Made by a program: the position numbers and the translations under genes. Positions 17,019 through 41,894 of a DNA stretch of 64,000 nt are shown here, piece by piece (within the stretch, counting starts at the first letter, position 1; each line of letters starts with the position of its first letter). The stretch is from Pegea sp. RAD2-039 (taxonomy: Eukaryota > Chordata > Thaliacea > Salpida > Salpidae), in the NCBI GenBank assembly GCA_034620365.1, contig JAQGEQ010000071.1, positions 4,526,001-4,590,000 of the forward strand, in the 5' to 3' direction. The notes under the pieces were generated by a model, which saw only the letters and a program-made list of their open reading frames with translations, made no database searches and was not told the origin of the DNA.

Positions 17019-20000
17019 TTGAGCAGCAAGGTGACGTAGCTGTTTACCAGCGAGGTCAAAGTCTATCTGATGAATTGCGAAATCAAATTGCTGACTGGAA
17101 TTTCGCAAGATTTGTTTTCATACTCAACAAAGGTTAGGATATTTCTTCTTTTAGATGAAAGATCTTGAAATTTAAAGGTTGTTTCTTTACTAATGGAAAT
17201 TATTCAGCATTTAATAGAGTTGATATTTACTTTCTTTCAACAAAAATTATTTTAAAACATTTTATTGTAAACTTTAATGCTTTGAAAGAGTAAACTCCAA
17301 ACTTACTACAAGATGCTTTTGAAAAAAAAATATCACTAACTTTTAGTTTATTTTTAATAAAATCATTCAATAAAATATCACTTATGTAACTTATTTTTTA
17401 TCAAATTCAGTTTTGTGGTCAAAAAAATTAAATAAAATGGATCGTAATGTCTGAACAGTTGTTTTCAAGCAGTTGCATCGTAATATCTATATTATATATT
17501 TACTTCGTCAAGTGCAATAGATGTTTAAACCGCAACTATTTTCAGAGCTATTAAGTAGTTTGCTTTCTTTGCACATAGATCAGATATTATTTGATTTAAC
17601 AGTTAGATCATTATTCCACTTTATTTTGATACTTGTTCAACTGTTTTTCAAAACAAAACTTACTCCTGGCTTTAAAATTTTTTAAGAATAATATTTACAA
17701 GATTTGATAAATATTTTTGACCAAATAATTTTACAAATTTTCAATCGGTTTTAAATGTTACTTATTTAAATGTTACTTAATAGAAACTTGGAAATATTTT
17801 TCTGAATAGACTTCTTATAATATATATTTTTAAATTAGGAGAAAGTAAAGATTGAAACAGACTACTAAAAATTTTAAGCCACAAGATTTTGAAGACAAAA
17901 AATAAATCAGAAGATTTTGAAGTTTCTTTTTCAACTTAATATTAGTTTTTGAATTTAACTTCACAAAGCTAAACAATCAAAAACCATTAAAATCTAAAAG
18001 GTTTTTACTCCATCAATATCGTTCTTGCCATTTTTAACAAAATTGATTCGTCCGAAGCTTTTAAAATACTTTTAATAGCTAAAAGATTAGTCGGCAGACA
18101 AATTGACTTTTAAGTACGATTGTTGAGAGTAATTATTATTTTAATCTTAATTTAAGTGGAATACATTTTGTTGAAGTTAATTTAAAAATATCAATACAAA
18201 AATTAAAAAACTGTATTGTTTAGAAATATTTATTTAATAAATAATAAAACTTTATAGAATTTTTTATGGTATATCACGGGTTGTAGGCTTTAAGGCTATA
18301 TGGTTTTGAGGTAAAAAATGAGTTTAAAGAAATCAACATTTTCAGCAAATTTAAGTTCATGGTTTTGTTCTGGAAACCAATATTTATGGTTATTGAGACT
18401 TTGAAAAGTATTTCAATTCGGAAGCAGCTTCATTCTACAGTATCTTTGATCGTTATGTAATATATCTGTTTGTTTCAAAAAATTTTCATAAATCTAGAAG
18501 CTTATCTTCTTTTTTAATTATGTTTTTTACAAATTTAAATATAATTTGCTTAAAAAAACCAGCTGCATAGTTAAGATGTGATTTGGACGAATTTGTAATT
18601 CAATAAACCTTTTACAATTTAATAAACTACAATTGATGATTCATATAATTGACAGCATTTTAAAGGAAAATAAATCATTTTATCTAAAAATGAAATAAAT
18701 TTTCTCTTTTCATTTACAAACATTATCTCATATAAACTTTATTTTTCAAATACACTAGTTTCTTATGGTGTTTATATTGATGTAAATATTTTATAATGTC
18801 TCTAAAAAATGTTTATAAAACTCACTAACTTTGTTTACCATTTGTATAAAATATTTATTCTCAATAGCAAAAAATATCTATAGAAATCTATTACAATTTG
18901 TGAAACTTTTATTCTAGTAATTAGATATGATAATAAAAATTTTTTAAATAATATTTAAAATTTTTATTTTATTAAATATTTTGCTTACAGTAATTAAAAT
19001 AATTAAATTGAGCTTGTATTTTTTTTGTTGCAAATTTTCGTTGCTTGAACTTTAAAGATTAGAATATCAAAATTCAACTTTACAGAATTGATTTTCTTTC
19101 TGATACATTTTTCTTGATGTACCAACTTAAAATACTAAACAGACTTGATTTTTTGGGAATGATAATTATTTTTTGATTCAAGACTTTGAATGATTACATT
19201 TTTTTAAACCTTGTTTACAACTTCAACTTAAGTTTTGTTTTTTTAAAAACAAATGACGAAAACAATAAGTGTAAAAAAACATAATTTAATGTTATGTAAT
19301 TGCAATTACATAACTTGAAAAAGGAAGTATTGTAAAATGACAAGCACTAAAACTTAAAAACAAATCAACAATGGGTTTTTTTAAGAAACCAAGTTCATTA
19401 CTAAGGGCTTAAGTATTCACATTTCTGAGGTAGGTTGTTATGTAAAATTCTACAAAAATTGAACTTTCAACTTTTACAAAAAAAACTGTCTTCTTTCGAA
19501 ATCGTTTGAAATTTTGTTGGAAGAAACTTTAATCACTCAATTTTGGCGTTTACATCTTCTTTTATTTTCTGATCTTCTTAAAAACATTCTTTAATTGAAG
19601 TAAGTAGAAGGAGCGAACAACTTACTGCAAGAAGCTGTTAGTAGTCGAAGTACTTTTATAATTTAAGTTGTCAATAAAAAATCTTTCAGTCTCACACTTA
19701 TTTTGGATATTTCTTTAAAATTCAGTGAAATTTATTTTTAATCTTTATTATAAAGGTTGTAAAAATATTTGTTTTTTTAGTTTCCAATGTCTATCTTTTG
19801 GTGGTAAGATTAACAAATTGATATTTTTCTCAGATATTCTTTATTTTTTAGACGTATTTCAAGTAATTGAAATTAAATTTAAGTAAAAGAAACTAATACT
19901 AGCCAAAAATTATAAGTTAAATCTTTTTTTTATGATGATAAATTGACAGGGTGGTATAAACGATTAAAAATGATTAAAAATACGTATAAACTTACATATT

Positions 20001-21516
20001 AACAAAATTTGATCACGTTCCAATAGACATTCTATAAAAAAAAATAAATGCGAAGGAGGGTGCCTGAAGAGAGCACCTCTCTCTAACACACATTCTCACA
20101 AATAACATCTATTTAGTCAACAATATACAAAGCAAAAGATGTAATACAGGACCTTTCAGTAGTCCTCAAAGCATATAACAGTGAACAATTACATAGAAGG
20201 GAAAAATTTACAGTTTAGAAATGATAATGTTGGCAATATTATAACAGTTCAACTTCTTCTTGAACAACGCGGGTGATTTTGACATGACAATGTCTGATGG
20301 CAGCTGGTTCCAAGTACTAATTGTGTGGAATGAGAAAAAATTTGCTCTGACCAATGTACCAGGTGATATGGGCTCAATTAGATTGTAGATAATTTAAAAA
20401 ATAAAAATTAAATCGTAATTAATCCGTCGAATTTCCAAAGTATCTAAATTTAGGAAGCTGAGACGATGTTTATAGCTATCGTATTTAATATTGAGTTTCC
20501 TGCACAGCAATCTCGTAAATGTTGCCTGAACAGATTCGATTTTTTTATATCACCAACTTGATATGGCATCCATGCACTAACATTGTGTTCAAGAATTGGA
20601 CGTACGTACAATTTGAAAAGATTGATAAAACATGTATGGATCCTTATAATTAAAGATCTTTATAATAATGTAGACCAGGTTGATTGATTTTCCAAAGATT
20701 CTAGAAACATAAATGCGGCTATTTAAAGTCAGATGGTAAGGTAATGCCAAGGTCTAGGACCGAAAATGTTCGTTGAATAATAAATCCCGTGATGGAATAT
20801 TGGTTCAAGGAATTTGCAGCTGGTTTACGGTTGTATTTAAATACTTTTGTCATCCAAACACTATAAAATTGAACTGTCCTTATGCAACATTAAAAGTTAC
20901 GTTTAAAATAACAAGTAAAATTAAACTGAAAGATAATTACATCTTGCTATGCTTGGTTTAATTGAATCTTACTTTAGGTCTCTAAGGACAAATTACGCAT
21001 TAAATTTTAATGATTTAATAACAAAAATGTTACCAAAACAAAACTCTAATGTAAATTACTTTTTGATTGAAAACACAATCAAGATACAGACTTATTACAT
21101 GATTAAAAAGAAAATTAAATATTTTTAAAGTCTGAAATCTCTTAAATTATATAAAGCTATTTTGATACAGAGTAGAATAAAAATCTGCACGACTAAAGTT
21201 TTAAAGTACAGTTTATATTTTTCTATCTTGAATGTTTTCACAATATACAATTTTCAAATGAAGCATCTAAAACAATTTAAATGTATTTCCAAAACTTTTT
21301 TTCACGAACGTTTTGCTGATACTTGATGCTGTAAATCAAACAATTAAAATTTTTACTATAATATAACCCTCTAAGTTGTCCTAACTTGCAGCGGTTCGTG
21401 CAGAATGGAGAAAAACTATCAACAGTGAGCCAAAATTCTTTGTTAACCAACCCAAAGCCGATACTGTAAATAAAAGAGGAAAGCGCAAAAAAGATAAGAG
21501 TTTAACCGTCACTTAG
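17019..21516 (+). CDS. Unrecognised gene: two coding-like exons around a 4.3 kb intron
   Basis: Exon A (17019-17132) follows a TTGCTAG acceptor and reads EQQGDVAVYQRGQSLSDELR, then NQIADWNFARFVFILNK. It ends at a GTTAGG donor in phase 1. Exon B (21392-21516) follows CTAACTTGCAG. It joins in phase, reads VRAEWRKTINSEPKFFVNQP, then a Lys/Arg-rich tail (KRGKRKKDKSLTVT) and a TAG. AATAAA occurs at 21605-21610. Both exons are compositionally coding-like against AT-rich flanks. Exon A has no in-frame ATG, so at least one upstream exon is missing. The first exon of the 15.9 kb gene (ending 16069, phase 1) is phase-compatible, so the two could be alternative products of one locus. No family is recognised. 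Confidence 0.55.
20037..20770 (-). mobile_element. Decayed, 5'-truncated LINE (non-LTR retrotransposon, CR1/Jockey-like)
   Basis: The minus strand encodes the C-terminal part of a LINE reverse transcriptase: a DLGITLPSDFK-like piece, then LFKLYVRPILEHNVSAWMP, IKKIESVQ, RHRLSFLN-type and LEIRRINYDLIF motifs, and a final TWNQLPSDIV / ALFKKKLN block. At least one frameshift (between the DLGI block and the VRPILE block) and one in-frame stop make it non-functional. About 190 bp of 3' UTR follow, ending near 20040 in a conserved GAGAG-loop-CTCTC hairpin and CCTCCTTCGCA. It lies within the intron of the 17-21.5 kb gene. The clade is inferred from the motif order only. Confidence 0.8.
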
Positions 21517-22881: not shown

Positions 22882-25800
22882 ATGGAAAAAGCTAAGGTAG
22901 TATATGGTATAAATACCATTTGTTACATCTTTTACTTTCTATATTTTTGACTAAATAGATTTTATTTGTGAGAATGTGTGTTTGCAAGAGATACTCTCTT
23001 CAGATACCCTCCTTCGCAATTATTGTGATAAATAAATATTAATTAATTCAATAGTTTTTATTCATGATAGGGACTTTTTAATCTAGCTACTTATATAAAC
23101 TTAGGATCTTAATGACTTATCATATTTTTACATCACTTTTTTATACAGTTTTCCTTGAGCCCTGCTCAAAGTAGCAGTCAAGTCCGCCCTCTACCATCTC
23201 TGCCAACTAGAAGTAATGAATCTGATTTATACCAGGTAACAGTTTATTTTGATCTTTATATAATATCTCATTTTAATTAGTAAAGATCTAATGTAATTAC
23301 TTTTTAAACTTTATTAGATTGTTCTGAAAAACAGTAATCATCCACCGATGATGCAGCAAAACTGGACTTTATTGTCTCCATATAAAGAAAAAAAACATTT
23401 TCGCACTCCAAGTGAATCCATTGCAAATGGTTACACACCAACAATTGCAGATGTTCAAATAAAGCAAATAAAAAAGAAAAAGTTAGCTTTAATTAAAACT
23501 TCTATTCAATTATTTTGATCATTTAGAATGTTAAACAGCAAATGCTAAACAATTTATTACTCAGGTTACATCAAGTAAAATATCTAATCAAGTTTTGACT
23601 TTTTACACTATGCTTAAATTTTGCAAATAAAACTGAGAAAGTGTTTATCTGTTAGGGAGGTACTATATAATGTTAAATAAGCAAGAGTTGTGAACAAAAG
23701 TTTCTCTGAGGTGATTTAAATGGTTTGAAAAGACTTGAAAATCGACTAGTTTGTGCTGATACCACCTTTGAACCGATAGAAGTCTACCAAAATCTATTTA
23801 TGGAGAAATATGAAAATACAACTTGTTTTATGTTGACGTTATGGAAAAGTCAGCATGATTCACTTCTCTAACTTCAATCACAAGATCTTCAATATTGCTT
23901 TTAATTAAGGGATTGTCACTGAAATATTTGGTCTACTTTTGTTTTTTCTAAAATAATTTTAAAAACCAAAAAGTAATTAGAAGAACAGTAAGAACAGAGA
24001 TTACAGAGACCTTTTATTTCCATTTATGTTTATTTTTTGTGATATGAACACTCTTCAAAGACAAGAACTTTTCCAACAAACCCTTAACAGAACTATTAAA
24101 GCAAAGACAACTTATTAGTAGTTCAAATGTTTGTAGTTTTGTTTGTTATTTTGTAATAATTTCTTAAAGATTATATAGATCTTCTGCAACAAATTAATTT
24201 TGATTATTTCAAATTTTAATAAAAAACAGAAAAAAGAAAGAAAAAAAGCTAACTTCATTGAATTTGGAATCAAAAAGAGAAAAGCAGAGGAAGTTGTCGT
24301 GTTCTTCGGGTTAGTCTCTTATCTATTGAAAGATTCAAATACTTTTTTAACTAGTGTTATAGTTTGCATTTTTCTAACCGATTTTTTTAATTTGCAGTAA
24401 AGTCAGACAGAAGTGATAAAATTGAACAAAAAAAATCTTCCAGTTCCAGTTCCACCTCCAGGTCTTATTTCAATTAATCTCTGAAAGTCTTCACTAACTT
24501 ATAAAAAATAGACAAATGAGGAGGTCACTGAGTACACCTCAAAGTGAACCTGTAAATAAGAAGATGAAAAGAAAATCAACCCCAAAAAATGAAGACCAGG
24601 ACAGGCCGTTGTCACCAATGCAACAGATTAGCCTGATTTTAGACATTGAAAAACTAACTGATGTAGATCAGATGAAGATTACTAACAAGGATATTGAGGT
24701 GATTTCATCTAAAGAGCCAAGTTTGTTGAGATTTGATAATTTATAATAATTTTTTAGAGATACTATTACTATATTAAGAATGGAATTAAAAGTTCTGAGC
24801 TAGCACCACCAGCACCAGGGCAGAAAGAAAGATTAGAGGAGAAGTTACCTGAACATATTCTAATAAATCCTGATTTTCAAAAACTTCTGGCTGATCTTCA
24901 TGAAGAAGTTTTAACTGATTATGATTTCAGCTACAGAAAGTCTGTTGGTGAGTAACTAGAGAAAGTGTTGAAGGAGTTGAAACCAATAATTAATCAACAA
25001 ACTACCAGACAACATCACTAAAATATATCTATCAAATGATGTATTTTTGTTGCTTGTTTTTTAGTTGATTATATATTGGAAGATGAAGAAGAAAGAAAAA
25101 GGGTGAATATACTAGTGACACCCAAACCTTTTCCCCATCGAATAGTAAGAGCCCCTGTTCCTTGGAATGAATCCTTTGCTTCAGCTGTTACTAGTTGCAA
25201 GAGAAATTTGTTCATTACTAACCCTATCATGCAAAATCTACAAAATTTGTGGTTTACAAAGTACAACTTACTCCTTGTATATTCGACATTAAGGATTTGT
25301 TTTATAGATTTCTGTCTTTACGATGTGTGCGAACAGATCTTCTTCTTCAATCAGATCTTCCGTTGCATCCTAACAAGTTTGAAGAAATGGTTTGTATAAA
25401 GTATGATTCAGTCTGATTCAATCATGGGATCATCTTTTAGGTGGCAAGTCATTGTGACGAAACTCGAAAAATCCTTCTTAATGAGTGGATTCCTTCTGCA
25501 GTTCGAGTGTTTGCAGATAATCGTGTATATTGGGAGAATTTGATTCCATCTTCATCATCTGATAGTGTTCAACTGGTTAGTGGTCATCAATTTTACATTT
25601 TTAACAAAATTGATGGAATTTTAAACAGATTCAAGAATTCTTCAATTGTACATCAATTTTAATGTCCAATCAATTAAGAGGAATGGTTCTTTCTTCACTT
25701 GAAGACTTTTTAGACTTTTTCAAGCTTCATGAAGTCAGCTAATTGAACTTTTTTACCATTTCAACAAACAATTCTAAATTGGCAGAAAGGAAATGAATTT

Positions 25801-28800
25801 GTTGATGAATATCATACAGTTGATTGGTCCATTAAATCAGTGATTAGTCTTCAATTACAAATCCGAGAAAACCAACCAACTTTCAATCCTACATTTAGAG
25901 ATTGCCAGCACGTGGTTCTCAATTGCTTTCATCGAATAATATCCACGGCTATCAACATACCAAGAGTCTGTCTCCTGTTGATGTCTTCATCAGTTGATTT
26001 TTCTCATTTTTAGGTTGAAACTGATTTATTTCCTGAAATGAAAAATTCAAATTTAGTTTTACGAAGTGTTGCAATTGCAGAAGAAATGGTTTCAAAAACT
26101 GTTACATCTGCAATCAGTATTCTTAAGCTAAACACAATTGGACCTTACAAGCAAGTTTTCTGGACTATATTGACAACTTATATCTTTATTTATAATGTTT
26201 AGATACTTAAATCACGTTTATTCCAAATACAACAAACTATTGAACGGTGTTGCTGCAGAAGAAGCCTTACAATTTACAATTGAAGGTCACGTGCTTGATG
26301 AATATGTTGAAATACTCGGTGAATATGAAGTAAATGAGTTTTGGATTAAAACTACAAAATTTTAAACTTACTTTTCAACAGAAAACTCGACAACAGTTAT
26401 TAGACATCCGGATACAAGCTCCTTTGAGCTTCTTTACTTTGGATTGTACAGAAATCAATGAAGAACATGTCTTAAGAGCTCAAAAACTTAAAGATTGTTT
26501 GATTCAACATCAGATTGATGTGAACAGGGAGCAAAATAAGAAGTTTGTTGAAAAATTACCATATTTTGAGCAATTCCCAAAAAAATTTGATGACATCTCG
26601 AATTTTCTAAAACAGAATCTGTCATCGGTATGACGTCATAGCAGATCGCGTTTCAGAGATGCCAGAGACAACTCGAGATCTCGTTGAGCTATTTGAATTC
26701 CTGAAAAAGTCCCAAGAGAAAACGATCTACGAATTAAAAGATGATACAGTGTTGGCTTCTGAACGATTAGATTTTCTTCTTGATTTTGCAAATCTTCCAT
26801 GTGAGAATTTCAGCCACTAGATGTCACTGTTTACCAGTTTATCACTTATAGATGAGGACATCAAGTTGAATAGTAATGTCTTTCATTGGCCTGATCAGAT
26901 CAGAAATGTTTTTGAAATTAATCAAAATCGATTAACAAATAGAAAGGAATCTGCTGAAACTAAACTCCGTAAAAGGTTTCATTTCAATTGAACAATTTAC
27001 ATCATTTCATGAATCCCTTAAATAGAGTCAAGATGTTCGGAGATACTTTGAACGCTTATAATAAAGAGATCGAGAGCTTCCGGAGGAAAGAGATCGCGAA
27101 CACCGAAGAGATGCAGAGAAACGTCGACAAATTATCTGATCTTGGGAGGTTGTTGGATGAAGCAACAACTGAACTTGAAGTGATTTTCAAATTTGATCTT
27201 GCTTCAATCTGGGACTTTATTCTGTTCTTCATAGAAAATTAATGAAGAAGAACAACTTCTGGAATTCGAAGAGAGTTTATTCCCATTACTTCAGAAGATG
27301 TATCAAACTAAACAACCATTTGATAGTTTGTGGAATACGGCGCTTCAGTGGCATACTAGCAATGAATTGTGGATGAATGGTAAACTCCAAGCTATTATCT
27401 ACTTCCTTAAGACACACTTCATCTTAAAGGTCCATTCCAAAGTCTCGACTCTGAGGTAGTGACTGAAGAGCTTCAGAACATGTGGAAGACCGTCTACAAG
27501 CTGACTAAGACCTTTTCCGACCTAGTTGGTCCTCGTCGAATCGCTGAAACAGTGAAATCGAAAATCGATAAATTCAAACTCCATCTACCTGTCCTCACTA
27601 CAATCTGTAATCCTGGAATCAAGCATCGACATTGGGAGCAGGTCTCGCATCCATCATCTAATTCTTTTACAAATAATTCTTTTAGATCAGTGACATTGTT
27701 GGATTTGATGTCAAACCTGATGATGACTCATCTTTGTGGCATATGTTAGAGTTTGGACTCGGAAAACACATCTATGCGTGAGTTAGAATCTTTTCTATGG
27801 TTAGAATCCATCATCATCTCATCTAAACCAACTGTAACTTGTCATTAACATCACCTAGATAGCTACAAACTTCTAACTTTTAAACTCGTTAAAGTAACTA
27901 GTTGAGAAGTTAGATAATTAGTTAGCTGAAATTCATTTGTTGCTGAAAGACTTGAAGAGATTAGTGTAAGAGCTGCCAAGGAATATGCTCTGGAAAGAAG
28001 TCTTTCCAAAATGAAGAGTGAATGGCAGTATATGGAGTTTGTTCTGGTTCCTTACAGAGATTCGGTAAGACACAAAAGCAGCAATCATTAGACTTTTTGT
28101 CAAAACATTTAATTTGCTGCCTGATTTAAATTAGACTTGCTTCTTCACTAGCTGCTTGTGATTGTTGAGTAGTTTCAATCATTCTTTTGTTGAATCCTAA
28201 TTAAATTTGCAATGTGGTTATAATCGTAGGGTTGAGACTGTTGGTTCTAGTGCGAGTAAGGAATGGTCGTTGGAAAAATCGATACAAAAAATGAAAATTG
28301 ATTGGACTTCCTTAAGCTTCGAATTAAACTCTTATCGAGATTCTGTAAGATTCGTAGAGTCATCAGAGTCAACTAATTTTCCTTTCACCATCTGCCTACA
28401 TACTAATCATCTTTTAGCTTTGACGATTTGCTTGTTCGAACTGTTGTAGTAATTCGTAGAATTTTGCAAACACTCACTTCACTGACTTTTATTTTTTCAT
28501 CATTTTCATGCTTTGTGTTTTAAACAATCATTTGATTAAACTGTTTTACTCATTTTTAAATTTGCTTGTAGTGAATGTCAGGTAATTGAAATACTAGAAG
28601 CTTTTAGAAGCATAATCAAGTCTTGTGATGGGTAGTTTTGATAATCAAAACCAATTTGTAGTTTTTGTTTATTCTTTATTTATTTTTTATGAAAGTTTGA
28701 AGGCAGTTTTTTATTCAGTTATTAAAAAAAAGTCAGTTTTTTTTCATATTCAGATTTATTTGAAATTTGTTTATTTTTTATTTGAGTTTAAGCTATTTTA

Positions 28801-31800
28801 AATTGAGTGCAGCTTTTTTTGTGCAGGGATTTAATGTCTTATCCGCTATAGATGATATACAAATCATGTTAGATGATCACATAATCAAGTCTCAGATAGT
28901 AAAGAACTCAGCTTTTATTGGTCCATATTTAAATGAATCGACAGTAAGAATTATTGTTTAGAATTTGAATAATTCTTGAAAGCAAATAATAATTAGAAGT
29001 TAGTTGGTTGAGTTTGGAGGGCTTAGAAAGAAATAGAAAAGGAATTGAAGATAGAAAGAACTAGTTTTGAAGATGTGTTAGGGATGATTGATGAGACGAT
29101 ATAATCTTCATTTATAAACCTCTTTAGGGTATTTCCATCTTATCTTCTATTGATGAAGTTCAAGAGCTATTAGATGATCATCTGATCAAAGCTGCTACTA
29201 TGAAAGGATCTCCATTTATTGGTCCTCTTGAATCAGAAGCAAAGGTTTGGTTCTTCTTTAAAGTTTTGGATGAAGATCATATTCTGAAAGTTATAAGAAG
29301 TCATTATTGAAAGAAATAAAGAACCCCTGTTGCTCCTAATCACTAAAATATCTAATTTTTTAACTCAATCTGTTTGTAGATTTACTTTTTTGTTTGTAGC
29401 TCACGTATTTTCTAATGTTTTATAGGAATGGGAAGAGAAACTGGTTTTGATGCAAGATATTTTAGATGCTTGGTTGAAATGTCAAGCTACATGGTTGTAT
29501 CTGGAACCAATTTTCAGTTCTGAAGATATATTAGCTCAGATGCCGGAAGAAGGAAGAAAGTTTGGAATTGTCGACGGTTACTGGAAAGACATCATGAAAG
29601 AAACGGTGATTGCATAAAAAGTCCAATTAGAATGTGAAAAGTTGTGACTTTTATTTCTATGACCAACAGTCAAAAGACCAGAAAGTCCTGGTCGCGACCT
29701 CACAGCCAAACATGTTGGGTCGATTATTAGAAGCTAATATACTACTTGATGAGATTCAGAAAGGTTTGAATGATTATTTGGAGAAGAAGCGGCTTTACTT
29801 CCCTCGGTGAGGAGTCATCTAACTCTCATCATCTTCTCACTGATCTTCATTTTCAGATTTTTCTTCCTTTCTAATGATGAGCTGCTAGAAATCCTCTCAG
29901 AGACTAAAGACCCTTTGAGAGTTCAACCTCATCTGAAGAAGTGTTTTGAAGGAATTGCAAGATTAGATTTCACTGATAACATGGAAATTGCTGGCATGAT
30001 CAGTTCAGAAGGTGAAGTCGTTCCTTTCACACAAAAGATTATTCCAGCTAAAGCTAAAGTGAGTTGTGATTGGTTGAATAAAAACAGCTGATGACGTCAT
30101 CTCTTCTGGATAGGGAATGGTCGAGAAGTGGCTCGCTGAAGTTGAGACTAATATGATTACCAGCATCAAGAATGTAATCTTCAAATCACTACGAGCTTAT
30201 GCTGAGACACATCGTAAGCGGTGGGTGCTGGACTGGCCTGGTCAGGTCATCTTGTGTGTCTCACAAAATTACTGGACTGCTGAGGTGGAAGAAGCAATTA
30301 AAGATGGGACATTGAAAGTGAGTGAAAATTGTATCAGCAAAAGGAACATCCTAAAAGAGAAGATAGTAAGGACTTCACTCTCTCATGTACCTCTAGATGC
30401 CCATCTTCTCCTAGTTGGTGTCCTAGTACTCCAAAAAAAGTTTAGTGATCGTCTTCCTCCCTGTCCACCTACTCTGAGTGTTGGTCCACAAGAGAATGTC
30501 CAAGTTCCTCTTTTATATGTTTACAAATACAGCTGTGAATCCATTTTCACTGCTTAGTGGTCTAGAAGCTGAAGTATTCAGGAATCTAGCTTTAATGTCC
30601 ACCTCTGTCAGCTTCTGGATGCCCCGCGACCTCTAATCTATTATAAGGCTTCTATTTTTTCTAAATTTCAATTTGTTTCAAAGGATTATCTTCAGCAACT
30701 TAATGATCAAATCAATGACATCGTTGATCTTGTACGGGGCAAACTGGACAAAGGAGCACGAATAAGTTTAGGGGCTTTGACCACTTTAGATGTCCACGGT
30801 AATGGACCAGCTTCAACTATTAAACTTATTAAAATGTCTTCATCCACAGCAAGAGATGTAATCTCAAATTTAGTGGATCAAAAGATCTCTAGTTGTTTAG
30901 ATTTTCAATGGATCAGTCAGTTGAGATATTATAAGAATGAGCAAGATGTCCAGATTCAGATGATCACTACGGACTACATATACGGATATGAATACCTGGG
31001 CAACTCTCATCGACTTGTCATTACTCCCTTAACTGATCGATGCTACAGGTTTGCTCCTAAGACATTTGATTATTTACTAAATTACTCTTTTATATAGGAC
31101 CCTCATGGGAGCTTTAAAACTCAATCTTGGAGGTGCCCCTGAAGGTCCTGCTGGTACGGGCAAGACTGAAACTACAAAAGATTTAGCCAAAGCACTCGCC
31201 AAACAGTGCGTGGTGTTTAACTGCTCTGATGGTCTCGATTATAAGGCCATGGGGAAGTTTTTTAAAGGACTTGCCTCTTGTGGGGCGTGGGCATGTTTTG
31301 ATGAGTTCAATCGTATTGAGGTTAGTTGACTTGCTTGTCACATCATCTAACTTGTAGTTTGTAGATCGAAGTGTTATCTGTGGTGGCTCAACAAATTCTC
31401 TGTATTCAAAATGGAATCATTCAGAAGCTGAAAAGATTTTTGTTTGAAGGAAGCGAGTTAGATTTAAATTGGAATTGTGCTGTCTTCATCACTATGAATC
31501 CAGGATACGCTGGAAGAACTGAGCTCCCTGATAATTTAAAGGTACATTTCATCACTCAAATCTTTTCAAATATTTCCTATCAACTTTTAGGTTTTGTTTC
31601 GTTCTGTTGCTATGATGGTTCCCGATTACGCCATGATTGGAGAGATTTCTTTATATTCGATGGGGTTCGTAAACGCGAGAAGCTTAGCGCAGAAAATAGT
31701 AGCAACTTATCGATTGTGTTCCGAGCAATTATCATCTCAGCATCACTATGACTACGGTGAGATCTCTCTCATTTATCAGCTCTTTTATTCCTAATTTATT

Positions 31801-34800
31801 TAAAGGTATGAGAGCTGTCAAAACAGTTCTTACTGCTGCTGGTAATCTCAAATTAAAATATCCTGAAAATGATGAAAGTGTCTTGATGTTAAGGGCTTTA
31901 ATGGATGTTAATCTCGCTAAATTTCTTTCTCAAGATGTCCCTCTCTTTAACGGTTAGTTCTTCCTCTTTTCGACAAGATCTTCTAATTGTTTAATCTTTA
32001 GGAATTATTTCGGATTTATTTCCTGGCGTTGTGCTTCCAACACCTGATTATGATGTCTTCTATCAAGCTATTCGTGAAAATATGAAAAAGAAGAACTTGC
32101 AAGCCACTGATTTCGTGTTGACGAAAATCACCCAAGTAATCATCTGATCTTTACATGATCGTCAACTGAACCCCAAATAACTTTCAGGTTTATGAAATGA
32201 TGCTAGTAAGACATGGATTCATGATTGTAGGTGATCCTATTGGAGGAAAAACATCCGCTTATCAAATCCTAGCTGATGCTCTAACTGATCTGAACAAAGC
32301 TAATTTGATGGAGGAATTTGCAGTTGATTATCAAATCATCAATCCCAAAGCTGTTCCTATGACTCGATTGTACGGATGTTTTGATGCAGTGTCTCATGAG
32401 TGGACAGATGGTGTCCTTCCAATCATTTACAGACAACAGGCATCTTCTACTTGCTCCAACAGGTCTTCATCAATTAAAAAATCTTAGAAAATACAAATAA
32501 AGTTTTTGATGACCAGGAAATGGTTGCTGTTTGATGGACCAGTGGACGCTGTTTGGATTGAAAACATGAACACGGTCCTCGATGACAACAAGAAGTTGTG
32601 TTTGATGTCCGGAGAGATTATCCAAATGAGCAACAAGGTGATGAGGTGGACTTCATTGATTTTCTCACCTTCAATTTTAACTTCAGATGAATTTGATCTT
32701 CGAACCAGCGGATTTAGAACAAGCATCTCCAGCTACTGTGTCCCGTTGTGGGATGATCTATATTGAACCTAAAGAGCTTGGTTGGAGACCCCTAAAAGTT
32801 TGAATTTTTATCATATTTTCAATTTTCTGATTTCAACTTCATCTTAAGACATCGTACATGAACACTTTACCTGAATCAGTGTCCGAAGAGCACAAGGAGA
32901 TGTTGAACGATATGTTCGAGTGGTTGATGGATCCTAGTTTCGAGTTTATTCATCTGAATTGTCGATACATCGTAAGTATCCTGAGTATTCATCTGTGTCT
33001 TGATCACTAATTTCATTCAATTCCAGCTAAAAACTTCTGAACTTCATCTAACTACTACAATGTTGAGATTATTATCGAGTCTTATGGAAGAGATTAAAGA
33101 TTCTGGTAAAAAAGAAGAATCAGATATGAGTTCTCAACAAGTACCAACACATCTATTTTTCTTCAAATCTTCAACTACTTTTTACAGATTCATCTTTGGC
33201 TACAAGGTCTCTTCCTCTTTTCAATGGTCTGGTCAGTTGGGGGTACAATTGATGGAGATAGTCGAAACAAGTTTGATTCTTTCTTTCGAACTTTGATAAG
33301 TGGAACAAATGATAAACATCCGAAACCTAAAAGCTCTAAACTCACTAAAAGTCATGTATTTCCTGAAAGAGGTGATTGTATGATTAAAACGATCACGTGA
33401 CAACTAATTGCCCACTTAGGTTCTATCTACGATTACTTTTTTCAAAAACGTTCAAATGGAAATTGGATTAATTGGATGGATTATTTTCAACCTTCTGAAT
33501 GCGAGATTGCAGCTGATGCAAAAGTTAGAGAACCTCTATCACCATATTTACTTCTTTTTCTCAAATATCTTCTTCTAACTCACAGGTTAGCGAGATAATC
33601 GTTCAAACGATGAATACAGCTCAACAAAACTTCTTTCTAAAAGCTTTTATAACCGCAGAGGTCCCTCTACTATTTGTAGGACCCACAGGTGAGCTACTAA
33701 AGACCCACATTTATCAATTAACCTCATCTTCATTCAGGAACTGGCAAATCTGCGATTACAAATGATTATTTGATCCACTTACCTAAAGAAACTCATCAAG
33801 CAAACTGCATAAATTTTTCTGCGCGAACCTCAGCTACTCAAACACAAGAAATTATTATGTCCAAACTTGATAGAAGAAGAAAGGGTGTTTATGGACCTCC
33901 AGTTGGTAAAAAGTCCGTGATTTTTGTGGATGATCTAAACATGCCAGCAAAAGAGGTCTGTGGAAGATTTTCAAATGATTGAGAGTTTTTTTTGAGACTT
34001 GATTACAGATTTATGGAGCTCAACCTCCATTAGAGCTTCTTAGGACTTGGTTGGATCATGGTTTCATGTATGATAAGAAAGATAGTTCAAAGATGTCTCT
34101 CATTGATGTACTCTTCGTCTCGTAAGTGTCCTCCAAGTCTCTTCATCAACTCAACTTCCTCATCAACAGTGCAATGGGACCACCAGGTGGCGGTAGAAAC
34201 AGCATCACAGCTAGATTGACTCGTCATCTAAACGTCGTCTCTATTGATAACTTCTCTCACGATACAACAATTAAGATTTTTCAAACAATAACTGATTGGC
34301 AATTCAACAATGGCTACGACGCTTCGATTTCGCGATTAGGTTGCTATGGTAATTTGTGATGAGATAATTTAATGATTTTTCTCAGGAAAGTTGATGGTAC
34401 AAGCAACAATGGGAGTGTACAAGCAAACCATGAGTACATTTCTTCCTACTCCAACTAAATCCCACTACGTTTTCAACTTGAGAGATTTTGCTAGAGTCAT
34501 CAGAGGCATTCTGCTAATTCCATCGTCACACATGAATGATTCTGATAAGTTTATTAGATTGTGGGTTCATGAAGTTTACAGGTAAGATCAGATCAATTAT
34601 CAAAGAGCTTAAAACTTAACTGGGAGCATTTTTAGGGTCTTCTACGACCGTTTAGTGGATGAAGAAGATCGGAAATCCTTCTTTCAAATTGTCAAAGAAT
34701 GCTGCTCGAATTATTTTAAAGAAAATATGGAAAAAGTGCTGAGTCATCTTTATCAAAGTCGACTTCAGGTTGAAAATGATGACTCAGCAATTTTCAAAAA

Positions 34801-37800
34801 AAAATTTCAATTCGATATTTTATTAGGATGATGACATCAGAAATCTCTTCTTCGGAGATTATCTAGAGCCTGATGCTCATCCAAAGATCTATGATGAAAT
34901 CAGTGACTTCAGTCAACTCTCTAAAACGATGGAGAGTTATTTAGAAGAATACAATCAGGTGAAGATCTTGAGAAGATCATCTGTAGATGCCAACTTTTAA
35001 TCTGATGATCAGGTCTCTCAAAGTCCCATGTCTTTGGTGATGTTTAAATTTGCGATTGAACACGTCTCAAGAGTTGCTCGGGTCTTGAAACAGGACAACG
35101 GGCATCTACTGTTGATTGGGATCGGTGGTAGTGGTCGGAAGTCTGTGACCAGATTAGCTGCTTTTATGGCGGATTATGAAGTTTACACAATCGAACTGAC
35201 CAGGTCTATATCTGGTCATGTCAAAAGTGGTCGTTTACTGAAATGGGTTTTAATAGGACCTATTCTTTCAATGATTGGAGGGAAGACATCCGGAAGATGA
35301 TGAAGAAAGCTGGAGTTCAAGGGACCCGGACTGTTTTTCTCTTTAGTGATCAGCAAATCAAAGAAGAGGCTTTTGTGGAAGACATCAATATGATCCTGAA
35401 CACAGCTGATATTCCAAATCTATTCCCAACTGATGAAAAAGTCGAACTGATCGAGAAGTTACAAGTTGGTTAATCTTAGGATGTAGATGATGTCTTAAAA
35501 GAGATCATTTGAAGGCGGTAGCTCGTCAAGAAGGGAAGAAGATTGAACCAACTCCAGCTGCTATGTATAATTACTTCATCGAGAGAGTAAAGAGCAATCT
35601 TCATGTTGTTCTTGCCATGAGTCCTATCGGAGACTCCTTGAGGAATCGTCTTCGGATGTTTCCTTCCCTCATCAACTGCTGTACCATCGACTGGTTCCAG
35701 GTTAGTCATTGGACCACTGGTCCAAATACTTGACCTAAACCACAACAGGCGTGGCCCGAAGACGCGTTAGAGATGGTGGCCAACCGGTTTCTTGAAGATG
35801 TTCAGTTGGAAGATGAGATCAGATTGAGATGTGTCAAGATCTGCAAGGTCTTCCACGAGAGGTTAGCGCGCTGCATGTGACGTCATCGATACAGGTGACG
35901 TCATCTCCGCTCTTTAGTGTCCGCACGCTATCTGATGACTTCTGGGATGTACTTCGTCGTCGCAATTACGTCACTCCTACGTCATATCTCGAGTTAATTC
36001 TCACTTTCAAGAATCTTCTCGAAGAAAAGAGTCAAGAAGTAAAAACTCTTCAAGATCGATACTTGAATGGACTTGAGAAGCTCAGCTTCGCCAGCTCACA
36101 GGTAAACGCTTCCTCATCCTCATCTTCATGAGATTACATCTCTCTACTGCCTCCAGGTGGCTGTAATGCAAGAAGAATTGACTCAGCTTCAACCAGAACT
36201 GATCCAGACGTCGGAGGAGACAGATCGGATCATGGTGAAGATTGAACATGACTCTGTTGAAGTAGAAGCAAAGAAAGAGGTTGGAAAGATCTCATCTAGA
36301 TCTTCATCCTAATTGACTTGCATCTTCAGATCGTTGCAGCAGATGAGAAGGTCGCGAATGCGGCTGCTAAAGAAGCGAAAGGGATTAAAGATGAATGTTC
36401 TGCGGATCTTGCAGAGGCTCTTCCTGCTCTTGAATCCGCGATTTCAGCTCTTAACACTCTCAAACCAGCTGTAAGTCTTCCTGAAAATTTTACAAAAGAT
36501 GATCACCGGATGTTCACAGGATATTTCGAGCGTGAAGTCGATGACAAATCCTCCTCCTGCAGTCAAACTAGTCCTTGAATCTATCTGCATCATGAAGAAT
36601 ATCAAACCTGAAAGAAAACCGGATACTTCTGGTTCTGGTTGGTTGATTTTAGTGACATCTTCCACCAGATTTTGATCATTTGAAACAGGTAAGATGATCG
36701 AAGATTACTGGGGTCCTTCGAAGAAGATGATGAATGATATGAAGTTTCTCGACTCACTCAAGACCTATGATAAAGATAATATCTCGGGACACATAATCAA
36801 GAAGATACGAGATAAATACATCAATAATCCGGAGTTTAATCCCGCTACAATCAAGAACATCTCATCTGCTTGTGAAGGTGATGAACATCTTCTGAAGATC
36901 AAGATGTAGCTTAGCAGAGGAGTTAATATCTTCATCTTTAGGTCTCTGTAAATGGGTTAGAGCGATGGAAGTTTATGAAAGAGTCGCGAAGGTTGTTGCT
37001 CCAAAGAAGATTAAATTAGCTGCTGCTGAAGCTGAGTTAAAGACACAAATGGAGAAGTTGAATGCAAAGCGCGCGGAACTGAAAAAGGTTTGTTTGAAGA
37101 TGAAGGACTTTGAGGTGGTTGATTTGCTGTCTAGGTTCTTGATAAAGTCAAAGCGCTTGAAGAAGAGTTCAGCAAAATGAATCAGAAGAAGATTGAGTTG
37201 GAAAACAATATTGAGATCTGTAAGAAGAAGTTGGTGCGCGCTGAACAACTGATCAATGGGCTTGGTGGCGAAAAAACCAGGTTGGTGCGGTCCACAGAGG
37301 TGGTCAGTTGACCAATTTGTTGTTCAGGTGGACTGAAGCTGCTGAGAGCTTAGGTATTTTACTGATAAATCTCACTGGAGATGTCCTTCTATCTGCAGGT
37401 ATCTTTGATTATCTGATTGTGTCTTTGATGATGCAAAATGATAATTTTAGGAACCATTGCATATCTGGGTCCATTCACTGTCGACTTTCGTGCTGGATGT
37501 CTTGATGATTGGCTGAAAACTTGCTGTGATGAGAAGATACCGTGTTCACCGACTTTTCATCTTTCTAATACTCTTGGTGATCCTGTAAAGATTAGAGATT
37601 GGCAGATAGCTGGATTGCCTGTTGACTCTTTTTCTGTTGATAACGGTAGAGATCTGTATGATCAAACAACAACTCAAATGATCTTCTTCATCAGGAATCA
37701 TTGTGAAAAACTCCAGGAGATGGCCTTTAATGATAGATCCACAAGGTCAAGTTAATAAATGGATTAAAAATATGGAAAAAGAGAATAATTTGTCGGTGAT

Positions 37801-40800
37801 CAAACTAACTGATAGTAACTACGTTCGTACATTAGAAAACGCTATTCAGTTCGGTACTCCAGTGTTACTGGAGAATCTAGGTGAAGTTATCTGTTGTTGA
37901 TGTAGTTGATTCAATACTTCGATTGTAGGTGAAGAAATTGATGCGATACTTGAAACAGTTTTGCTCAAACAGACTTACAAACAGCAGGGAGTCGAATACA
38001 TCAAACTTGGTGATAATAATATCGAATATTCAGATCAATTTCGATTTTATATGACGACAAATCTTCGCAATCCTCACTACCTTCCTGAGATATCTGTCAA
38101 GGTTTGAGCTTCACTGAGATGAAATCTCTGATCTTCAACTGATCTTTATCAGGTTTGTCTCCTCAATTTTATGATTACTCCTCTGGGTCTTCAAGATCAG
38201 CTTCTTGGGATTGTGGCTGCAAAAGAAAAACCAGAATTAGAAATTAAGAAAAATGAGTTGATTTTGGAAAGTGCAGAAAATAAAAGACAACTTCAAACTA
38301 TTGAAGATAAGATCTTAAAAGTTACTTAACATCACATGATCAAAGTCATCTTCTAAATGATCTTGTGTCTCAGGTGTTATCTTCATCAGAAGGAAATATT
38401 CTTGAAGATGAAACAGCTATAGAGATCTTATCATCTTCTAAGATACTCTCCCAAGAGATCTCCGCTAAACAAGAGATCGCAACAGAAACTGAAAAAGAAA
38501 TTGATGAGACTAGAAACGGATACAAACCAGTTGCAGTTCATTCAGCAGTCCTCTTCTTCTGCATCTCAGATCTTGCAAATATAGAACCGATGTATCAGTA
38601 CTCTTTAACTTGGTTCATCAATCTTTATCTAGCTGTGAGCAAACAATTGATATTTTATTTCAACTTTTCAATTTATTTAATTTTTAGTCGATTAAAAACA
38701 GTCAAAAATCAAATAAATTGTTGGAAAGAATTCAGAATTTAAATAATCATTTCACTGATAGTATTTACAAGAATGTCTGTCGGTCATTATTTGAAAAAGA
38801 CAAATTGTTGTTCTCCTTTGTTCTCACGATTGCTTTGCAAACAAGTGCAGGTGTGTCTTGAGAAGATGTAGATTATCTACAAACAAAATCTGAGATTTAA
38901 TCCTAAATTATTTGAAGGAAAAATTGATGATGAAGTTTGGAGGTTCTTCCTCACCGGAGGCGTTGCTCTTGACAACCCGCATCCAAATCCTGCTCCTGAA
39001 TGGCTCCAAGATAAAGCTTGGAGTGAACTTGTAAGAGCTTCTAACCTCAGTAACCTCCAAGGACTCTTAGATCATTTCCGAGATAATTTGGAAGATTGGA
39101 AAAATGTTTTTGACTCGATAACGCCTCACGAAGAAACGTAAGTCCCAACGCTGACTCGACGAGATCCCAAACTCATGAGAGTCATAACTAAACCAGGTTT
39201 CCTGGGATTTGGAGTTTGTTAGGGGGCCTAGATCGGATGGTTGTGTTGAGATGTCTTCGACCTGATAAGATTGTGCCTGCCGTCCAACATTTCATCGTTG
39301 ATAACATGGGCGAGTCTTTTATTGAACCTCCGACCTTTGATTTACTTGGATCTTATAATGATTCCACTTGTTGTACTCCTCTCATCTTCATCCTCTCACC
39401 TGGAGCTGATCCCATGGCAGGTGATCTTCTAAAAGAAGATCTTTTAAGATCACTATATTGATCTTCTTTAAGGCTTGTTGAAGTTTGCTGAAGATCGAGG
39501 TTTGGTGGATCAAGTATTGGGACGATTTCTCTGGGCCAAGGACAAGGACCAGTTGCAACTAAGATGATTGAAGACGCTATCAAACAGGTCAGTCCTGTCC
39601 ATTTTATTCAAGTGTGGGACTCACAATGGAATTTTTAGGGCACTTGGGTCGTTCTTCAGAACTGCCACTTGGCAACTAGTTGGATGATGTCTTTACAGAA
39701 GATCTGCGAAGAGATGATTGTTCCTGAGAGGACACACGAATCATTTCGTTTGTGGTTGACTAGTTACCCTTCTGAAAAGTTCCCAGTTCCCATCTTGCAG
39801 GTCAGATCATCTTCATCTTCATCCAAATCTTTCAGAACTCTTTTTATTTTAGAACGGAGTAAAAATGACAAATGAACCTCCCAAAGGTCTTCGAGCAAAC
39901 TTACTTCGTTCCTATCTCAATGATCCTATCTCAGATACTAGCTTCTTTGAAGGATGCAACAAATCTAAGGTTTAATCTTCTCAATCTTCAATTCATCTTC
40001 TAAATATTATCCTTGATTCAGGCTTGGCAGAAAATGCTCTTTGGACTTTGCTTCTTTCATGCTCTGGTGCAAGAACGGAGGAAGTTTGGAGCTTTGGGTT
40101 GGAACATCGCTTACGAATTTAACGAATCCGATTTACGTATCAGTATGAGACAACTACAAGTTCGTTTCTCCTTACCTCCTTTTGTGTTAAGATCAAATCT
40201 CAAATGTTCTCTTTGATTTGCAGATGTTTTTGAACGATTATGATGAGATACCTTTTGAAGCGTTAACTTATCTAACTGGTGAATGTAATTATGGTGGTAG
40301 AGTTACAGATGATAAAGACAGAAGACTTTTATTGTCTCTTCTTTCTGTTGTGAGTTTTTTTCATTATAATATTTTGAAATCGAAATATTTTTCGAGTCTT
40401 AAAATTTCTTCTTTTTAGTTTTATAAAGAAGATTTGGTGCTTGATGATCAATATGTGTTTTCACCTAGTGGTAAGTATTTTGCACCTAAGCACGGACAGT
40501 ATCATGATTACTTGGATTACATCAGAGATCTTCCTTTAATCCCTCATCCAGAGGTTTGATGTTTGAAACCATCAAACTCGAAGTCTATTGATTTCTTTAA
40601 AGGTTTTTGGTCTTCATGGAAATGCTGATATCACTAAAGACAATAAAGAGACGCAAGAACTTCTCGATGGTATTCTTCTAACTCTTCCAAGGCAAAGTGG
40701 ATCTGATGGCAAGTCCCCGGAGCAAATCATCGACAGCTTGGCCGGTGACATCCTCTCTAAACTTCCTAATGACTTTGACGTAGAAAATGTGATGAAAAAG

Positions 40801-41894
40801 TATCCTGTTGTCTACAATGAGTCGATGAACACAGTTTTAAGGTTGTTGTTTGTTTTTATTGTTGTTCTTTCAGTTGTTCTTTTAACTTATTGTTAATTTT
40901 AGAGATTTATTCATTTATCTTCAACTTTTTCAGACAAGAATTGATTCGTTTTAATCGCTTGACTTCAGTTGTTCGTCTCAGTTTAATTAATCTTCAAAAA
41001 GCTATTAAGGGGTTGGTAGTGATGTCATCTGAACTAGAAGAGGTCTTTTCTTCTATGCTGACTGGAAAAGTGCCAGCTATGTGGACAGCAAAGTCCTACC
41101 CGTCCTTGAAACCACTCGGAGGTTACATCATCGGTAAATTGATTGTTTAAAAAATGCTTTTTCCGTGGAATGTTTAAATTGAAGAAATTTACAGATTTGT
41201 TGGCAAGATTACATTTTTTCAACAACTGGATTGAAAATGGGATTCCGGATGTTTTCTGGATATCTGGATTCTACTTTACTCAATCTTTTCTAACTGGTGC
41301 AACTCAAAACTTTTCCAGGAAGTTCGTGAACCTTTTCAACTTCTAAAGATTCAAATTTAAATCTTACAGATACGTGATTCCAATTGATCACATCGGATTC
41401 GAATTTGAAGTTTTATCTTGTGATGATGAATCGGAAATTGACATGAAACCAGATGATGGTTTGTACGAATCATCTTGACTCCTCAACTAACTTCTCACAT
41501 CTTCAGGAGTTTATGTGAGAGGTTTGTTCCTGGAAGGAGCAAGATGGGATTGCATCCAGATGGAAATTGGAGAATCTCATTCAAAAGTCCTCTTTGATCA
41601 ACTTCCTATAATCTGGTTGAAGCCAGGAAAAAGCTCATCATTTAGGAAGAAGGAGGCTTACTCATGTCCTATGTACAAGACCAGTGCCCGTCGGGGCACT
41701 TTATCCACTACAGGTTATTTTTAGAGAAATCCATTTTCGGCAATTTTTAGTAAAAATTTCATCTCAAAGTCGGATGTTGATCTCTTTCAGGTCATTCAAC
41801 TAATTTTGTGATGATGATAGAGCTGCCTTCAAAGAAACCTCAAGAGTACTGGATCAATAGAGGAGTTGCAATTCTCTGTCAACTTGATGATTAG
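22882..41894 (+). CDS. DNAH7: Axonemal dynein heavy chain 7, inner-arm motor
   Basis: ATPase motor of single-headed inner dynein arms, driving ciliary beating (family knowledge). The proposed start is ATG at 22882 (MEKAK), splicing in phase to 23149. Many exons follow, most separated by roughly 40-60 nt introns. After a low-complexity basic N-terminus come [10 protein letters not shown] (about 24.76 kb) and the tail/linker. AAA1 has GPAGTGKT (31144-31167) and [13 protein letters not shown]2 has GDPIGGKT (32230-32253). AAA3 has GPTGTGKS, split by an intron near 33.69 kb, and AAA4 has GIGGSGRKS near 35.13 kb. The stalk is at about 36.0-37.25 kb, with a microtubule-binding part near [10 protein letters not shown] (36.7 kb). 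AAA5-6 run from [13 protein letters not shown] on. The C-terminus has [16 protein letters not shown] and ends [11 protein letters not shown] with TAG at 41892. Near-continuous similarity to human DNAH7, including AAA2, separates it from DNAH12. The gene appears intact; see the duplicated exons. Confidence 0.95.
22897..23040 (+). mobile_element. 3'-terminal fragment of the same LINE family, in DNAH7 intron 1
   Basis: From about 22921 to 23020 this matches the 3' UTR of the 20.0-20.8 kb LINE in opposite orientation. Shared blocks include TTGACTAAATAGAT, TTATTTGTGAGAATGTGTGT, the AGAGA/TCTCT hairpin and CCTCCTTCGCA. It ends in a TGATAAATAAATATT microsatellite-like tail, as in CR1/L2-type elements. 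No coding part remains. It lies between the proposed first exon and the exon at 23149. Confidence 0.75.
27950..28064 (+). other. DNAH7 alternative exon a1 (family-like version)
   Basis: 115 nt, acceptor phase 2, donor GTAAGA in phase 0. It encodes [16 protein letters not shown] and ends VLVPYRDS, matching the DNAH7 consensus before AAA1 (KEYALEKxMEKMxxEW ... ILPYRES). Because 115 is not a multiple of three, exactly one exon of the a pair must be used to keep frame. Confidence 0.85.
28230..28344 (+). other. DNAH7 alternative exon a2 (diverged copy)
   Basis: 115 nt with the same phases and the same GTAAGA donor as a1. It encodes [16 protein letters not shown] and ends FELNSYRDS. About 18 of 39 residues match a1 by hand alignment. 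It is open throughout and shows no stop. Confidence 0.8.
28827..28943 (+). other. DNAH7 alternative exon b1 (diverged copy)
   Basis: 117 nt, phase 0 at both ends, acceptor TTTTTGTGCAG and donor GTAAGA. It encodes [17 protein letters not shown] and [10 protein letters not shown]. About 19 of 39 residues match b2. It is open throughout. Confidence 0.8.
29128..29244 (+). other. DNAH7 alternative exon b2 (family-like version)
   Basis: 117 nt, phase 0 at both ends, acceptor CTCTTTAG and donor GTTTGG. It encodes [17 protein letters not shown] and MKGSPFIGP, closer to the DNAH7 consensus (LSSVDEIQMLLDDH ... GSPFIKP) than b1 is. The next constitutive exon starts at about 29427 with [18 protein letters not shown]. 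Confidence 0.85.

Follow-up and report, generated by a model that had tools for sequence, protein, structure and literature searches.

The genome of the salp Pegea sp. RAD2-039 encodes a dynein heavy chain in which two adjacent exons each occur twice in tandem, in the order a1-a2-b1-b2. The gene lies in a 64-kb window of the assembly (GCA_034620365.1, contig JAQGEQ010000071.1, positions 4,526,001 to 4,590,000; positions below count from the first base of this window), and the doubled exons encode part of the linker, the element of the motor covered by the DHC_N2 domain. Our reading, with a probability of about 0.75, is that exons of an axonemal DNAH3 gene were duplicated in tandem and that their splicing is predicted to be mutually exclusive. 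Exclusive use is predicted strongly for the a pair and is likely for the b pair. Tandem duplicated alternative exons had been proposed here earlier from the letters of the window (the sequence-only reading). As a prediction, this is still the best account: the frame lock of the a exons, selection on all four copies and long introns speak for it, and the missing lock in the b pair speaks against it.

Tandem exon pairs in the linker of a DNAH3-like gene

The exons are listed in Table 1, and all four are bordered by AG and GT. At the protein level a1 and a2 are identical at 18/39 positions and b1 and b2 at 19/39; the BLOSUM62 scores of the two pairs are 95 and 106, compared with 36 and 28 for the best of 2000 shuffles. 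Coordinates, lengths (115/115 and 117/117 nucleotides, nt), phases, splice-site dinucleotides and identities are exactly those of the sequence-only reading. Both pairs have the properties used to recognize clusters of mutually exclusive exons: they are neighbouring, homologous, similar in length and equal in phase, and have compatible splice sites. The window was also compared with itself, using 2197 six-frame stop-to-stop open reading frames of at least 18 amino acids and considering the best 40 pairs. The two best same-strand pairs were b1/b2 (E 5e-12) and a1/a2 (E 3e-10), and the remaining pairs with E <1e-4 among these 40 were on opposite strands and came from a single inverted repeat at 20.0/22.9 kb. 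This repeat (approximately 19967-20175 and 22895-23042) lies upstream of the dynein gene, is 65-73% identical in translation and looks transposon-like. Because duplication of a single a-b block would give a-b-a-b, the order of the exons would reflect two independent events, in which each of two adjacent exons was duplicated in tandem.

Table 1. Features of the dynein locus, in window coordinates
Feature	Position	Strand	Remarks
DNAH3-like dynein heavy chain gene	24516..41713	+	ab initio model; AAA region best matched by DNAH3
Constitutive exon upstream of cluster	27686..27777	+	ends in codon phase 2; weak donor (12th percentile)
Exon a1, 115 nt	27950..28064	+	phase 2 to 0
Exon a2, 115 nt, predicted alternative to a1	28230..28344	+	phase 2 to 0
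Intron between the two pairs, 482 nt	28345..28826	+	longest of 70 model introns
Exon b1, 117 nt	28827..28943	+	phase 0 to 0; without TM.GSPF motif
Exon b2, 117 nt, more canonical b copy	29128..29244	+	phase 0 to 0
Constitutive exon downstream of cluster	29426..29605	+	gene model

The assembly searched comprises 105.7 Mb in 387 contigs, and the window has 31% G+C. Genes were modelled ab initio with parameters trained on the same genome, window included; the ends of the dynein gene model are approximate and individual exons may be wrong. Once trimmed of two exons at the far 3' end and of one spurious 17-nt exon, the model has ∼71 exons and no internal stops, and the modelled exon 30114-30518 is probably a read-through into an intron. 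Among heavy chains of known structure, the AAA region scored 1883.3 and 1870.4 bits against the DNAH3 entries of solved axonemes, and at most 1411.1 bits against the DNAH12 and DNAH7 structures (1408.7 and 1394.5 bits for the DNAH7 entries). Because of this difference the gene is, judged by its AAA region, the orthologue of DNAH3, and the name DNAH7 used in the sequence-only reading is rejected. The DNAH3 inner arm dynein in PDB entry 8j07 (chain g3) was the second-best match for linker and AAA regions together, behind the other DNAH3 entry, 9fqr chain Xx. The latter chain is labelled putative malate dehydrogenase 1B; we call it DNAH3 because in the alignment it differs little from 8j07_g3, and its 4069-residue sequence aligns as DNAH3. 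Two further chains of 9fqr, Hl (labelled radial spoke protein) and I3 (labelled CFAP57), also match as heavy chains.

Together the a and b segments cover approximately positions 115-210 of the 403 in DHC_N2, in the N-terminal half of the domain, and align to residues 990-1067 of human DNAH3 (8j07_g3, 4116 residues). In the human protein the segment aligns once, unlike the doubled exons of the window gene. In the gene model it starts 518 and ends 441 residues before the P-loop of AAA1, distances that are probably some tens of residues too long. The earlier placement in or near the linker is thus confirmed, but "just N-terminal to AAA1" is a loose description of a segment this far off. Subdomains 1 and 2 of the four that make up the dynein linker move together as one rigid body; subdomain 1 touches AAA5 or AAA4 and subdomain 2 touches AAA2 (PMC7215579). 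Given their location within DHC_N2, a and b would sit in the mobile half of the linker.

Reading frame, coding potential and selection

The reading frame constrains the a exons tightly. An mRNA with both a1 and a2 reaches a stop at residue 630, and one with neither stops at residue 605 (with b2) or 598 (with b1). Exactly one a exon is therefore needed for a full protein, and the claim that the 115-nt length forces such a choice holds. In human, exon lengths that are no multiple of three are reported for 60% of mutually exclusive clusters (PMC5740500); a frame lock is common among such clusters and does not define them. Whichever a exon is combined with whichever b exon, the linker domain stays complete, with DHC_N2 scores of 485.5 (a1b2), 478.8 (a2b2), 470.6 (a1b1) and 463.7 bits (a2b1) at a cut-off of 31.9. 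Against DNAH3 (9fqr_Xx), a1b2 and a2b1 score nearly equally (228.8 and 227.3 bits).

Several lines of evidence indicate that the four exons are coding. The ab initio model picked all of them with exact borders. A coding-score model trained solely on six other dynein loci, with the window left out, gave 13.5 (a1), 7.0 (a2), 1.7 (b1) and 14.5 bits (b2) in the true frame; 333 readings of intronic windows from the cluster had a mean of -27.8 and a maximum of -7.1 bits. Identity at first, second and third codon positions is 20/38, 25/38 and 15/39 between a1 and a2, and 22/39, 30/39 and 17/39 between b1 and b2. In both pairs silent sites have changed much more than the protein. The nonsynonymous divergence (dN) between copies is 0.45-0.52; the synonymous divergence (dS) could be obtained in three of nine estimates, the others being saturated or failing, and dN/dS was 0.29 (NG86) and 0.55 (LWL85) for the b pair and 0.36 (LWL85) for a and b combined. 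When neutral evolution was simulated to the observed third-position divergence, starting from either copy of each pair, an open and equally similar sequence arose in 0, 0, 1 and 0 of 5000 runs. Given how rarely neutral runs matched the observation, none of the four copies appears to have escaped selection for long.

To see which copy is canonical, we used DNAH3, DNAH7 and DNAH12 from solved structures and one paralogue of the same genome as six reference rows; a second count added a seventh, the DNAH7-like paralogue at the locus C67. Of the 34 columns invariant in six rows, a1 keeps 12/15, a2 14/15, b1 12/19 and b2 16/19, and with seven rows the counts are 12/14, 13/14, 12/17 and 14/17. Human DNAH3 shares 18/38 residues with a1 and likewise with a2, 20/39 with b1 and 22/39 with b2. 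On this evidence b1 is the derived b copy, which has lost the TM.GSPF motif of the six reference rows. For a the evidence is split: a2 is favoured by invariant residues, and a1 by identity to the DNAH7 rows (18, 21 and 19 positions, vs 16, 16 and 15 for a2) and by the general DHC_N2 profile (in combination with b2, as given above). The suggestion that the outer copies are canonical and the inner ones diverged is accordingly borne out for b and left divided for a. In a tree of the a exons a2 groups with DNAH3 and a1 falls outside, with a support (81/77 on 38-39 columns) that is not decisive; the b tree, of the same size, has an unsettled topology. At the position of GSPF, b1 has NSAF and the b segment of C67 (∼325.6-325.8 kb) has SSAF, and both may be signs of a change that this lineage tolerates.

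Splicing context and competing explanations

The introns of the cluster are unusually long. In order they measure 172, 165, 482, 184 and 181 nt, against a gene-model median of 53 nt, and a length of at least 165 nt is found in 5/5 introns inside the cluster vs 5/65 outside it. Steric exclusion between copies is unlikely, because introns of 165 and 184 nt are ample in a gene where 53 nt is usual. Splice sites were ranked against 441 predicted introns, which share a crude splice score, so that the percentiles are rough. Weak sites surround the a exons: the upstream donor is at the 12th percentile, the a1 acceptor at the 13th, and the a2 acceptor and donor at the 18th and 10th. The acceptor of the exon after b2 is at the 83rd. 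We propose that one a exon would be chosen with the aid of these weak sites, and that wrong a products would be removed through their early stops and nonsense-mediated decay. One b exon would most likely be selected by regulated splicing, as the frame does not force the choice.

RNA structure within the introns was also considered. Local folds of the five introns had z values from -1.9 to +2.1, and Rfam gave no matches in 27000-30500. A 20-nt inverted repeat with 85% complementarity and a 3-nt spacer occupies 27872-27914, within the intron that ends at the weak a1 acceptor and close to that site. In addition, 27865-27882 shows 83% complementarity to 28987-29004 in the b1-b2 intron.

A number of observations weigh against mutually exclusive use of both pairs. 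The length of each b exon, 117 nt, is a multiple of three, and joint use or skipping of these exons keeps the frame, so the signature of mutually exclusive splicing claimed earlier is enforced by the frame in a and not in b. Sites other than those named above are not weak: the a1 donor is at the 52nd percentile, the b1 acceptor and donor are at the 99th and 41st, and both sites of b2 are at the 52nd. The check for intronic pairing elements that accompanied the sequence-only reading gave no significant result, the best of 10 intron pairs (the upstream intron with the a1-a2 intron) being reached by 3/100 shuffles; pairs including the 482-nt intron had 40 shuffles. The gene model placed a1 and a2 in one transcript, joined by the spurious 17-nt exon, and therefore supports coding exons and not exclusivity. 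That small exon (28152-28168) has a poor donor and does nothing but keep the frame, and was rejected as chance. Finally, b1 has the weakest coding score of the four, has lost 7/19 residues invariant in six rows (5/17 in seven), and has no row in the genome scan with DHC_N2, which gives one row each for a1, a2 and b2.

Part of this evidence would fit an arrangement in which only the a pair is exclusive, and b1 is a cassette exon or is joined with b2, adding 39 linker residues to some transcripts. Transcripts with a1+b1+b2, like those with a1 and no b exon, remain open, the b1 acceptor is the strongest of the cluster, and the double-b protein matches DHC_N2 with 499.6 bits in two stretches. We nevertheless consider this improbable. 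The homology of b1 and b2 extends over their full length and they match one and the same stretch of DNAH3, so a protein with both would contain a single structural element twice; as the double-b form matches the Pfam domain in two stretches, its higher score probably counts that repeat twice. The low scores of b1 and its lost TM.GSPF motif would also be expected if one copy, most likely b1, were a relic heading to loss or used at noise level. Yet b1 retains an open frame and both splice sites although silent divergence has reached saturation, an outcome that neutral decay reproduced in at most 1/5000 runs, and the SSAF of the DNAH7-like gene at C67 indicates that the motif tolerates change in this genome. 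A relic is accordingly less probable still than a cassette.

Exclusive choice within both pairs might also be coupled, a1 being used with b2 and a2 with b1 to give two motors. Both a1 and b2 are slightly nearer to DNAH7-type than to DNAH3 rows, and a2 is slightly nearer to DNAH3, with which it also groups in the a tree. Only 38-39 columns underlie these preferences, however, b1 has no clear preference, and neither the intron comparisons nor the domain scores, good for all four combinations, single out two of them. We regard such coupling as a rather unlikely refinement of the preferred explanation.

The sequence-only reading had itself raised the possibility that two paralogues or haplotypes were merged into one locus by the assembly. 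The self-comparisons show only the two exon pairs doubled, with single neighbours, and the copies are far too different for haplotypes. A DNA search of the assembly found no second window locus, the best other match being 133 bases at 74% in C76, and joining two loci would not yield the order a1-a2-b1-b2. An assembly artefact is thus very improbable. Gene conversion from a paralogue was rejected as well, as the DNA search found no similarity to the a or b exons elsewhere; what other DNA matches the locus has are confined to the exon after the cluster and to T-rich sequence within the a2-b1 intron.

The doubling also stands out within the genome. A search with DHC_N2 returned at least 92 matches, counted by eye as at least 19 heavy chain loci with the window included. 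On visual inspection of these matches, the window alone showed two separate segments that largely share their profile positions (115-169 and 122-175), which are the two a exons. A double cover of positions 223-254 at C262 proved by eye, after translation, to be one exon with overhanging alignments. When a2+b1 was searched against the genome, the closest relatives lay on C76 and C67, in one copy each; by eye, the linker of C67 looks like that of a DNAH7 gene. Six of the 18 other loci (C67, C202, C76, C249, C1 and C40) were scanned for tandem exons over 30 kb each, of which C202 and C40 are poorer tests, their models being without the AAA1 P-loop motif searched for. No same-strand tandem pairs touching model exons were found in C67, C202, C76 or C249. 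A weak self-match in the DNAH1-like gene at C1 (E 2e-4) was attributed to chance, the partner exon being read in the wrong frame. C40 gave 14 same-strand pairs, and the ten examined all lie inside a ∼2-kb repeat that by eye does not resemble dynein.

The C40 repeat (stretch 169884-199883, reverse strand, 22-26 kb) has a unit every ∼2 kb in three copies with ∼80-98% translated identity, and adjoins or lies within the heavy chain locus. Elsewhere in the assembly, an 18S end motif with two shared mismatches occurs at C1:6131841, C125:283894 and C278:8943, and an ordinary 18S at C27:5872. The C1 copy is truncated and diverged, and lies beside a short tandem repeat.

Meaning and comparison with known systems

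Axonemal dyneins are usually taken to vary by gene rather than by splicing. Under the preferred explanation of exclusive a and b exons, the Pegea gene could produce up to four DNAH3 motors that differ within a 78-residue stretch of the mobile part of the linker. Such variants would adjust how the lever docks or swings, in sperm or in ciliated cells of different kinds, although both their tissue specificity and their mechanical effect are suggested here by analogy. A combinatorial power-stroke lever in an inner-arm dynein, with two independent neighbouring exon switches in the linker yielding up to four motors that set beat mechanics by tissue or in sperm, much as arthropod muscle myosin uses its alternative exons, is a tentative extension of this idea. 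If true, a linker-swapping gene would amount to a naturally occurring mutant series, its motors identical except in the linker. It would allow the effect of the mobile linker half on force, speed and docking to the AAA ring to be tested, and would make it testable whether tissues tune cilia through splicing.

The sequence-only reading knew of no described case in an axonemal dynein heavy chain. We likewise found none with exclusive, tandem or alternative exons among the papers listed from the open literature, judged by titles and the openings of abstracts, which is weak evidence of absence; a term search of the main text of PMC5740500 gave no mention of DNAH or DYNC. A precedent does exist in a cytoplasmic dynein: Pillmann et al. 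(2011) predicted a mutually exclusive exon in DHC1 of Schistosoma mansoni (PMC3228551). As described there, that case resembles the Pegea gene in being a dynein heavy chain with equal-length tandem exons and split codons, predicted from sequence. It differs in that DHC1 is cytoplasmic and has one pair, and the Pegea gene is axonemal, with two pairs side by side that encode part of the linker's N-terminal half.

Human genes likewise contain homologous tandem exons, known as tandem duplicated exon substitutions, that are old and constrained (PMC9741552, PMC5740500), and in animals such substitutions are described as old and tissue-specific (PMC9741552). A further parallel is the muscle myosin heavy chain of Daphnia and Drosophila, in which several clusters of alternative exons in the motor domain tune mechanics, some of them adjacent without a constitutive exon between (PMC3228551). 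The myosin clusters are well established, and the dynein case is known from its sequence. The predicted exon switch is thus of a known kind, and what may be new is its place in an axonemal dynein linker, with two switches side by side.

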